From: an uncultured Chloroflexales bacterium
GTDB taxonomy: Bacteria > Chloroflexota > Chloroflexia > Chloroflexales > Chloroflexaceae
Assembly (NCBI GenBank): GCA_937918935.1
Contig: CAKZSI010000025.1
Span: 62,001 to 126,000 of the forward strand
Reading direction: 5' to 3'
Length of the DNA stretch: 64,000 bases
The stretch's first letter is position 1, and the number at the start of each line of letters is the position of its first letter. A program made the translations under genes and the position numbers. The notes beneath the pieces were generated by a model. It was not told the DNA's origin and made no database searches. It worked only from the letters and a program-made list of their open reading frames with translations. This document shows positions 26,539 to 29,761 of this stretch, piece by piece.

Positions 26539-26567
26539 TTGACAGTCGCTCCCTCTGCGCATACAAT
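26539..26567 (+). promoter_or_regulatory. consensus sigma-70 promoter, leaderless start, for the glycosidase-ligase fusion
   Basis: TTGACA (26539-26544), exactly 17 bases, TACAAT (26562-26567). Only 8 bases (CCGCCCCG) separate the -10 from the ATG at 26576, so the transcript should begin at or within about two bases of the ATG. No Shine-Dalgarno sequence is present. Confidence 0.8.
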
Positions 26568-26575
26568 CCGCCCCG

Positions 26576-29500
26576 ATGAACACCGCCGGTCAGCGTCTCC
26601 TTCTGCTGCTATTCCTCAATCTACTGCTGCTTGTGGCCCTGGCCGCTGTGGTCTGGGCCGATAATGCGGCCAATCGTGGTATTACCTTCACGCCCGATCC
26701 GCGCCCGATCCCCTTCGCAGAGGGGCCGGTGCTAGGCGTGAATCTGTTCAATATCCACCTCGAACCCGATCCCGAAGCGGTGCGGCGCTCCTTTACCATG
26801 GCCCGCGATCTGGGGGCGCGCTATGCGCGGATGCAGGTTCCCTGGGAGGATATCGAGATCCATGGGCGCGGCGATTTCGAGGATCGGCGCAACCTGGAGA
26901 CAATGGGCGCGGTGTCGGCGTGGGCGAAGTACGACCGTCTGGCCGCCGAAGCCAATGCCGCAGGCGTCGAGTTGATCTGGCGCCTGGAGCGCCCGCCTCT
27001 GTGGGCGCGTGAGCGAGCTGTCACTTCGCCCTACTTTCAGGCCGGTCTGGAACGCGACGGCAATTCCACCGGCCCTCCTGACGATGTTGCCGACTACGCC
27101 GCGTTCGTGCGCGCCGTGGTCGAGCGGTATGACGGCGACGGCATAGAGGACGCGCCGGGCAGCCCGGTGGTGCGCTACTTCCAACTCTGGAATGAGCCGA
27201 ATTTGAAGAACGAGTGGAACTGGGAGACGCCCCGGCCCGAGGATTTCGTCGCGTTGTTGCAGGCGGGGGCCACCGCGGCGCGGGCGGCCAACCCCGCGGC
27301 GGTGATCCTCTTCCCGGGCCTGGCCCCCACCGATGGGCTCGACGATCGCGCCCCGATGACGGAACTGGAGTACCTCGACCGGATCTACAAAGCTGGCGGC
27401 GCGGCCTACTTCGACGTGATGGCCGCGCAGAACTACGGCCTGGGCCAGCCTCCCGATGAGCACCGTTACGTGTTTCTGCGGGGACGGGACAACTGGAACC
27501 GGGGCCGCCCGGTTGACACGCGCAACGACGTGAGCCGGATCGTGCTGCTGCGGGAGGTGATGGAGCGCAACGGGGACGCTGGCACGGCGGTCTGGGTGAC
27601 CGAGTTTGGCTGGAATGCTGCCCCGGAGCATATTCCCGCCGAGCGGCGCTCCACCTGGGGTGCGCCGGTGAGTGAGGAGACCAAAGGGCGCTACCTGGTG
27701 GGCCACATGGAGCGCGCCCGTACCGAGTGGCCCTGGGTGGGGGTGATGAACGTATGGATGCTGCGCTACGGCGGTTACGCCGAGCCGGCCCCCGACGACC
27801 CCACGCCCTACTTTGCCCTGGTGACGCGCGACTGGCAGCCGCTGCCGGCCTTTGAGGCTCTGGCGGCCTACACCCACGCCCCCGTCCGTGCCGGGGTTGG
27901 CGCGCACACCCGGGCGCATCCGGCGGTTGAGCGATTGTCTGATGGCTGGCGCATCCGTTTCAGCGGGGCGCGCCTCACTCTCCTCGGCAACCTGCCGGCG
28001 CCGCCTGTCGCCACCCTCAACGGCGCAGAGGTGACGCTGGCGCCGGGTGAACTGGACGGGTTGCCGGCCTTTGTCACGCCGGCTCTGCCTGACGGCGAGC
28101 ATACGCTGGAGGTGCGCGGGCGGAGCGTGCCGGAACGCTTCATCGTCGAGCGGGCGCGTCCCCGCGGCTGGCTGTGGGATCATGGCCCCCTGGCGCTGAT
28201 CGTGGCGCTGATGGTGAGTATAGGCGCCACGCTGCACCTGGCCTTCCCGGCGACTGCGGGCGCCTTGAGGCGGCTGCGGGATGCGCAGCAGCGCGCAGAG
28301 GGCAGCCCGCGCCTTGCCGACCGGCTCATACAGCCCGACAGCCTGTTCGTCGTCGGCATGCTGGTAGCCGCGCTGATCGCCTACCGTGCCTCGCCGCAAC
28401 TGCCGCTGACGCTGCTGGGGCTGGCGCTCTTCGGGGCGCTGGCCCTGGTGCGTCCCGATCTGGGCCTGCTGCTGGTCCCGCTGACCCTGCCGTTCTACTT
28501 CATCCCCAAGGATCTCTTCGACACCCGTTTCGGCATCCGCGAGAGCGGTCTGTATCTGCCCCTGCACGAAATCCTGCTTCTTATCGCCGGCGCTGCTGTG
28601 GTCGCGCGCCGGGTGGGAACAGAGCCGTGGCAACGAGGGCGCCCGCGGGCGGGCGGCGTGACCGCCTGGCTGGGGGAGATGGCGCCGATAGGGCTGTTTC
28701 TGGCGGCGGCCGGGTGGGGGGTGTATATCGCCGAGGCGCGTAGCCTGGCCCTGCGCGAGTTCCGCTGGACAGTGCTCGAACCGATGCTCTTCGTGGGGCT
28801 GGCCTGGCTCGCGGGGTCGCGTCTGGCCCATGGCAGCCCCAGGGTCTACTGGCGGAAGGTAACGTGGTTCTGGCTGGCGGGTGGGGCCGTGGCGGGGTTG
28901 GTGGGGTTGTTGCAGTTTGTCGGGCTGAACCTGGCGCCGCTCTTCGGCGAAAAGGCCGGCTTCGGCGAAGATCGCTTCCTGGTGGAGGGCGTTCAGCGGG
29001 TGGCGGGGTTGTACGGGCATCCAAACAACCTGGGGCTGGCGATGGGGCGCTACTGGCCGGTCGCGGCGGCGCTGGCCCTCGGAGCCTTGCGGGAGGCGGA
29101 CAGCCGTGGCGCAGGGCTGCGCCAGGCGTGGCCGGCAGCGCTGGTGGCGCTGCTGTGTGCGGGCGGCCTGCTGGTCTCCTTCTCGCGGGGAGCCTACCTG
29201 GGCGCACTGGTGGCCGTGGGCCTCCTGGCAGCGCTGCTACTGCCGCGCTCCTTCTGGCGCGACCGGCGCGCGCGCCTCGCACTGGGGGTGCTCGGCGGCG
29301 CAGCGTTGCTGGCCCTGGTCGTCGCCGCGGCCCTGGATATCGAACGCTTCAATCCGATCGGCGCCAGCGGCGCGGTGCGTTTGAAGACCTGGGCGTCGGC
29401 CCTGGCGATGCTGCGCGACCATCCCCTGGGAGTCGGGCTTGACCAGTTCGGCCAGTTGTACCCGACCTATATCGCCCCGGAGCTGGCCGGCACGAGCGAG

Positions 29501-29761
29501 ATTAATACCTCGCATCCCCACAACCTGTTTCTGGACATCGCCCTGCGCATGGGGCCGCTGGGGCCGGTCGCCTTTGCCTGGCTCATCTTCCGTTTCTACC
29601 ACGACGCCCGGGTCTGCTCGAGCGGCAGCGCGGCGCTCTGCGCCGGCCTTATCGCCGCCATGAGCGCGGCGCTGGCGCACGGCCTGGTGGACCAGTTCTA
29701 CTTCTGGTCGGATCTGGCCTTTGCGTTCTGGATCCTGGTGGCGTTGGCGCGGGATAGCTAG
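26576..29761 (+). CDS. fusion of glycoside-hydrolase-like domain and O-antigen ligase/polymerase-like membrane domain
   Basis: A 1061-residue protein. An N-terminal anchor (about 7-28) precedes a clan GH-A-like (beta/alpha)8 domain, residues about 45-430, with YFQLWNEPN (acid/base Glu207) and AVWVTEFGW (nucleophile Glu343), resembling GH39/GH5-type enzymes. A small beta domain (about 440-525) follows, then from about 535 a polytopic membrane part with O-antigen ligase (Wzy_C/WaaL) features: YGHPNNLGLAMGRYW, VSFSRGAYLGA, SHPHNLFLDIALRMGPLGP. Plausibly the outer domain trims or senses a glycan that the membrane domain polymerises or attaches. The frame is continuous, with no sign of a sequencing join. 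The order of domains is clear; combined activity is inference. Confidence 0.88.
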   Translation: MNTAGQRLLLLLFLNLLLLVALAAVVWADNAANRGITFTPDPRPIPFAEGPVLGVNLFNIHLEPDPEAVRRSFTMARDLGARYARMQVPWEDIEIHGRGDFEDRRNLETMGAVSAWAKYDRLAAEANAAGVELIWRLERPPLWARERAVTSPYFQAGLERDGNSTGPPDDVADYAAFVRAVVERYDGDGIEDAPGSPVVRYFQLWNEPNLKNEWNWETPRPEDFVALLQAGATAARAANPAAVILFPGLAPTDGLDDRAPMTELEYLDRIYKAGGAAYFDVMAAQNYGLGQPPDEHRYVFLRGRDNWNRGRPVDTRNDVSRIVLLREVMERNGDAGTAVWVTEFGWNAAPEHIPAERRSTWGAPVSEETKGRYLVGHMERARTEWPWVGVMNVWMLRYGGYAEPAPDDPTPYFALVTRDWQPLPAFEALAAYTHAPVRAGVGAHTRAHPAVERLSDGWRIRFSGARLTLLGNLPAPPVATLNGAEVTLAPGELDGLPAFVTPALPDGEHTLEVRGRSVPERFIVERARPRGWLWDHGPLALIVALMVSIGATLHLAFPATAGALRRLRDAQQRAEGSPRLADRLIQPDSLFVVGMLVAALIAYRASPQLPLTLLGLALFGALALVRPDLGLLLVPLTLPFYFIPKDLFDTRFGIRESGLYLPLHEILLLIAGAAVVARRVGTEPWQRGRPRAGGVTAWLGEMAPIGLFLAAAGWGVYIAEARSLALREFRWTVLEPMLFVGLAWLAGSRLAHGSPRVYWRKVTWFWLAGGAVAGLVGLLQFVGLNLAPLFGEKAGFGEDRFLVEGVQRVAGLYGHPNNLGLAMGRYWPVAAALALGALREADSRGAGLRQAWPAALVALLCAGGLLVSFSRGAYLGALVAVGLLAALLLPRSFWRDRRARLALGVLGGAALLALVVAAALDIERFNPIGASGAVRLKTWASALAMLRDHPLGVGLDQFGQLYPTYIAPELAGTSEINTSHPHNLFLDIALRMGPLGPVAFAWLIFRFYHDARVCSSGSAALCAGLIAAMSAALAHGLVDQFYFWSDLAFAFWILVALARDS

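Follow-up and report, generated by a model that had tools for sequence, protein, structure and literature searches.

The reason for which loci for exopolysaccharides encode hydrolases acting on the very polymer they make is an open question, for which PslG of Pseudomonas offers a close described case. The enzyme, a retaining endo-beta-glucosidase (PMC11912335), must be both membrane-associated and hydrolytically active for Psl to be produced in full; its position has been proposed to control the cutting of Psl at a certain length, and its role in Psl synthesis has been disputed (PMC6813494). For the O-antigen ligase WaaL, the roles of residues R191, R265 and H313 have been described (PMC10920833). 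Here we report a gene of Chloroflexota that joins a PslG-like glycosidase to a WaaL-like transferase. Searches of open-access journal papers returned no published description of such a fusion, and the sole comparable GT121 fusion that they yielded was WadA, whose partner is a GT25 domain (PMC10920833).

The fused gene

The window, by which we mean the whole 64,000-nt stretch of DNA that was analysed, from an uncultured Chloroflexales bacterium, contains a single open frame joining the two domains, as the initial annotation had claimed. From the N to the C terminus, the encoded protein consists of a signal anchor, a clan GH-A barrel, a beta-sandwich, a membrane helix and a polytopic half of the Wzy_C/WaaL type (Table 1). 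The promoter-like sequence in front of the frame is present in 5/5 congeners, and its position relative to the ATG supports the start codon of the fused gene. The mRNA, if transcribed from this predicted promoter, is probably leaderless. A very long antisense ORF of 762 aa overlaps the gene, and we take it to be a high-GC shadow of the real frame. When the window protein was compared with five relatives, dN/dS ranged from 0.11 to 0.17 in the barrel and from 0.17 to 0.29 in the membrane half, so that both halves of the gene are under purifying selection. These low values, together with the recurrence of the single frame in other genomes, indicate that the fused frame is neither a chance frame nor an artefact.

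Table 1. Features of the fused gene and its upstream region, in window positions
Feature	Position	Strand	Basis or remark
Fused PslG-like glycosidase / WaaL-like transferase gene, 1061 aa	26576..29761	+	one open frame, ATG to stop
Promoter-like TTGACA-N17-TACAAT	26539..26567	+	11/12 match to consensus; ends 8 nt before ATG
N-terminal signal anchor helix, aa 3-33	26582..26674	+	model helix; hydropathy peak 3.1 over aa 1-34
Clan GH-A (beta/alpha)8 barrel, PslG-like, aa 46-435	26711..27880	+	profile, AF2 model, Foldseek
Glu207, predicted general acid/base (= PslG Glu165)	27194..27196	+	profile alignment; kept in nearly all relatives
Glu343, predicted nucleophile (= PslG Glu276)	27602..27604	+	profile alignment; kept in nearly all relatives
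Beta-sandwich after barrel, aa 436-530	27881..28165	+	strand pattern in model
Membrane helix linking the halves, aa 531-574	28166..28297	+	model, hydropathy; split relatives break just after the helix
Polytopic WaaL/GT-C-like transferase half, aa 587-1060	28334..29755	+	AF2, Foldseek, profile
Pfam Wzy_C (PF04932), aa 856-1000	29141..29575	+	E 8e-20
Arg871 (= WaaL Arg191, diphosphate binding)	29186..29188	+	profile alignment
Arg935 (= WaaL Arg265, diphosphate binding)	29378..29380	+	profile alignment
His982 (= WaaL His313, acceptor activation), in HN-x9-GxxG	29519..29521	+	profile alignment

The glycosidase-like barrel

The barrel of the window protein does not reach the Pfam GH39 cut-off (PF01229; 17.1 bits vs 26). 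Split barrels matched GH39 with a best E of 2.4e-5, and 10/18 of them matched Cellulase (PF00150). A profile built from 60 fused proteins (profile A1) and compared with solved structures gave PslG as the best relative of the barrel (5bx9, E 5.4e-20). Since WNEPN begins at residue 205 and VTEFGW at 341, their glutamates are residues 207 and 343, exactly as the initial annotation had placed them. In the profile alignment Glu207 pairs with PslG Glu165 in a strong segment and Glu343 with PslG Glu276 in a short, low-scoring one (WxTEfGW vs WSTEWGW in PslG). AlphaFold2 modelled the whole protein with a mean pLDDT of 87 and a pTM of 0.69, and the top three Foldseek matches of this model in the PDB were all PslG entries. 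The predicted structure thus has the marks of a PslG-like clan GH-A enzyme, namely the barrel fold, the acid/base in WNEPN and the nucleophile in TExGW, with the catalytic pair in register with that of PslG; the barrel without a glycosidase-like pocket, which the initial annotation had named as counting against it, was not what the model gave. An archaeal disaggregatase-related repeat protein on a plasmid of Methanomethylovorans hollandica (L193) also matches the barrel, at 27% identity.

Both glutamates are retained in 61/65 readable fused barrels, in all 21/21 split partner barrels, in 35/35 barrels that have no Wzy_C neighbour and in 19 of the 20 stand-alone barrels that adjoin a fused gene. 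The four fused members lacking one or both are found at L069 978-4259 and L070 4632-7964 (both Thermoflexus-type), L126 2202-5207 and L159 3453-6518, and altered motifs seen in such barrels are WHNPN/SHFGW, WDDPN/VAFGW and WDQPN. Judged by these residues the four are natural dead or changed enzymes, so in some lineages the barrel can serve without normal catalysis. One might therefore propose that the barrel in general has no catalytic role and instead binds glycan or acts as a scaffold, presenting the chain to the transferase, since these four keep it. However, the pair is intact in the other fused members, in every split copy and in the window protein, and of the two halves the barrel is the slower to change (mean column identity in split partners, 58% vs 38% for the transferase; dN/dS, as above), so we give this proposal little credence.

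Retaining GH-A enzymes work through a covalent intermediate, which can pass to acceptors. On this ground the barrel might be a transglycosidase that breaks a chain and hands it on to a second glycan, so as to cross-link or edit the envelope, with the membrane half supplying new chains. The support for such a role includes no transglycosidase-specific sequence feature, and we regard it as quite improbable. We prefer to read the barrel as a putative hydrolase.

Residues 1-34 of the protein are a hydrophobic helix, and positively charged residues come after the second helix (aa 566-584), from which the positive-inside rule predicts that the barrel is outside the cell membrane.

The membrane half

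The Wzy_C domain of the window protein scores 71.6 bits, above the Pfam cut-off of 31.7. Among solved structures this half matched WaaL (7tpg) best, both with the 60-protein profile (E 4.1e-14) and with a profile of the membrane half only (E 2.1e-14). A model of aa 575-1061 (AF2; pLDDT 91, pTM 0.92) had WaaL 7tpg as its only Foldseek match in the PDB below E 0.001, with a TM-score of 0.49 (query) or 0.57 (target). In this model the fold is of the WaaL membrane type, and the conserved residues fall within a long external loop towards the C-terminus. The alignment with 7tpg recovers the residue set of a GT121-type enzyme, two diphosphate-binding arginines and an acceptor-activating histidine: every readable fused relative has R or K at the position of Arg871, Arg935 is invariant among the relatives and His982 is invariant wherever readable. 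The profile matches, the predicted structures and the conservation of catalytic residues thus uphold the pairing of a GH-A-like barrel with a Wzy_C/WaaL-like domain that had been read from the sequence at the outset.

Identity with a named family member is another matter. The window protein has no match to the RfaL equivalog in NCBIfam, and those relatives that do match it score 30-35 bits vs a cut-off of 277. Assignment to the IctB transporter (TIGR00947) was rejected, at 58.2 bits vs an equivalog cut-off of 366.4. After WaaL, the closest solved structure is that of an oligosaccharyltransferase (9rmk, E 1.6e-9), and relatives show weak matches to TfpM and PEP_O_lig_1, as would be expected if the membrane half were a PglL/TfpM-like O-oligosaccharyltransferase acting on surface proteins, with the barrel trimming transferred or free oligosaccharide. 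However, these relatives fall far below the NCBIfam cut-offs, and PglL_A and Wzy_C_2 are absent among the Pfam matches of the window protein up to E 1, which makes an oligosaccharyltransferase improbable in our judgement. A WaaL-like transferase is the reading that we retain.

The genome of the window encodes other Wzy_C proteins. Another Wzy_C protein, with 1137 residues and C-terminal TPR repeats, lies at L178 1799-5209, and weak Wzy_C frames of similar size occur in other Chloroflexota.

Fused and split forms

A whole-genome search found the pair, fused or split, in 38/41 sampled genomes of the order; no orthologue was found in the remaining genomes G014, G020 and G031, and G019 had only fragments. 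All 4/4 sampled congeners carry the single frame, at 76-89% identity (5/5 genomes of the genus with the window's own). Beyond the genus, most of family f1, to which the window belongs, and the genomes of f2 have it too. The halves are two adjacent genes on the same strand throughout f3 and f4 and in three f1 genomes (G005, G008, G011). The two genes share a 4-base start/stop overlap (GTGA or ATGA) in G011, G033, G039, G032 and the f3 genomes checked, in some cases accompanied by a Shine-Dalgarno-like sequence. A gap separates the genes instead in G030, G036 and G027, and in G005 there is no start codon at the split junction itself.

In other classes of Chloroflexota, fused proteins of about 1000-1250 residues are found in many families. 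Scans beyond the phylum covered a plasmid collection and one set of genome contigs; in the latter, searched with single-protein patterns, the taxonomically named matches were nearly all from Chloroflexota. The fusion is therefore a widespread architecture of this phylum, and the search for the domain pair that the initial annotation had called for recovered it across the genus and widely beyond. To regard the protein as one of a kind is too narrow, and PslG in Pseudomonas is a known case of a glycosidase that acts, un-fused, within a pathway of glycan assembly. In the other classes the fused gene is often directly preceded by a separate gene for a PslG-like barrel (L127, L129, L131, L140, L146, L148, L151-L157, L160, L161).

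In a maximum-likelihood tree of the barrel with 80 rows, the fused/split label has to change five times, and well-supported branches force at least four of these changes; the transferase tree gives the same order-level clades. Most deep lineages are fused, which makes it probable that the split state is the derived one, in a tree that is rooted by midpoint only and in which long branches meet.

Separate genes in relatives had been foreseen as a sign that the frame of the window might be a sequencing or assembly join of two genes. Adjacent and often overlapping genes do occur, as described above. However, the same single frame is found across many independent assemblies and deep in the phylum, including the single-contig genomes G148, G164, G254 and G062, and a join is rejected as extremely unlikely.

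Genomic context

The neighbours of the gene in the window are a cation exchanger, a DUF4126 gene, an HMG-CoA-lyase-like gene and an SDR gene, with no glycan genes among them. Neighbourhoods here and in family f1 consist of housekeeping genes and are uninformative for function, so the link to glycan synthesis comes from relatives. One Anaerolineae-type family has conserved neighbours that are likewise not glycan genes (NYN, AP_endonuc_2, an M50 peptidase and MnmE). In Roseiflexus-type genomes the pair is followed by two PMM/PGM-like genes, a CofD-like gene and a sugar nucleotidyltransferase. In six genomes, all outside the order (G304, G052, G058, G253, G276, G200), the gene adjoins a lipid-linked glycan cassette comprising some or all of GT4, LPG_synthase_TM, epimerases and a second Wzy_C. 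The window's own genome has a cassette on another contig (C39, L171 4097-12302) with GT4, LPG_synthase_TM, an epimerase, a Wzy_C protein of 532 aa, a further epimerase and Bac_transf, the initiating sugar transferase; homologues of this cassette adjoin the fused gene in other families. A relative of the second Wzy_C protein was present in 16/16 genomes tested. A Paracoccus plasmid carries an EPS cluster in which a PslG-like gene is accompanied by genes for glycosyltransferases, an export protein, a flippase and a protein of the O-antigen-ligase family. The pairing thus exists in another phylum as well, without fusion.

The membrane half could also be the polymerase of the pathway (Wzy), with the barrel as a chain-length regulator that cuts in place of a Wzz-type co-polymerase. 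Wzy_C spans polymerases and ligases alike, and PslG itself has been proposed to control Psl by cutting at a certain length (PMC6813494). However, the residues match those of WaaL, including the histidine, in place of which most families of GT-C1 polymerases have Asp or Glu (PMC10920833), and in several genomes the same cassette contains a further, separate gene for a Wzy_C protein. For these two reasons we prefer to regard the membrane half as a putative ligase, and hold the polymerase to be unlikely, though it is the alternative we take most seriously. The second Wzy_C proteins of the relatives also keep HxH, so this motif failed as a discriminator between ligase and polymerase, and the residue argument is weakened and not decisive.

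Proposed function

The folds, the residue sets, the conserved fusion or adjacency and the glycan cassette next door in several lineages, as seen in sequences and models, are the starting point of our proposal. We consider it probable that the protein works in lipid-linked glycan assembly with two active sites, those of a PslG-like endo-beta-glycosidase and of the WaaL-like transferase to which it is tethered. According to this proposal, the barrel would be a retaining enzyme, with Glu207 as acid/base and Glu343 as nucleophile, held over the outer face of the membrane by the signal anchor and the second membrane helix. The transferase would act on a lipid-linked glycan with the cutter fixed above it. 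The barrel, in turn, would cut this same glycan, setting its length, releasing chains or removing wrongly linked ones, and trimming or release would in this manner be coupled to the assembly or attachment of surface glycan. What the initial annotation suggested, cutting of a glycan followed by polymerisation or attachment of glycan, is still the best reading of the sequence and the models.

One may further speculate that these are single-chain cut-and-attach enzymes throughout Chloroflexota, in which the barrel would cut a polysaccharide, either lipid-linked or the mature surface polymer, and the WaaL-like half would attach the product to wall or protein. We think this rather unlikely; if true, it would provide length control and anchoring without a Wzz-type regulator or an LPS acceptor.

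Whether by fusion or by overlapping neighbour genes, the arrangement suggests that cutting is physically coupled to building or attaching surface glycan. A hydrolase tied covalently to a transferase, or encoded in an overlapping gene, would have the ratio and position of both activities fixed. Direct coupling of cutting and transfer becomes testable in one purified protein, and the fused enzyme offers a way into how Chloroflexota build and anchor their surface glycans.

Comparison with known systems

Each half of the protein is of a known kind and the combination is what is new, although annotation databases may list such proteins without remark. PslG (GH39, from the Psl locus of Pseudomonas aeruginosa) has the same barrel fold, WNEPN and TExGW motifs and membrane association, and a place in an exopolysaccharide assembly pathway that we infer for the Chloroflexota protein. 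However, it is a separate protein, whereas here one polypeptide holds the transferase as well and has two membrane attachments. WaaL (CAZy GT121; cryo-EM 7TPG) shares the membrane fold, the counterparts of R191, R265 and H313 and the HN-x9-GxxG pattern, but the Chloroflexota protein has an N-terminal glycosidase and an LPS core acceptor is not supported for it. BcsZ, AlgL, PgaB and PssZ (PMC6813494) are likewise glycan-cutting enzymes encoded with synthesis machinery; they are separate proteins, not fused to a WaaL-like transferase. The bimodular GT25-GT121 ligase WadA, of Brucella and relatives, also fuses a GT121-type ligase to a second carbohydrate-active domain; its partner domain is a glycosyltransferase that completes the acceptor (PMC10920833), whereas in the Chloroflexota protein the partner is predicted to be a hydrolase.
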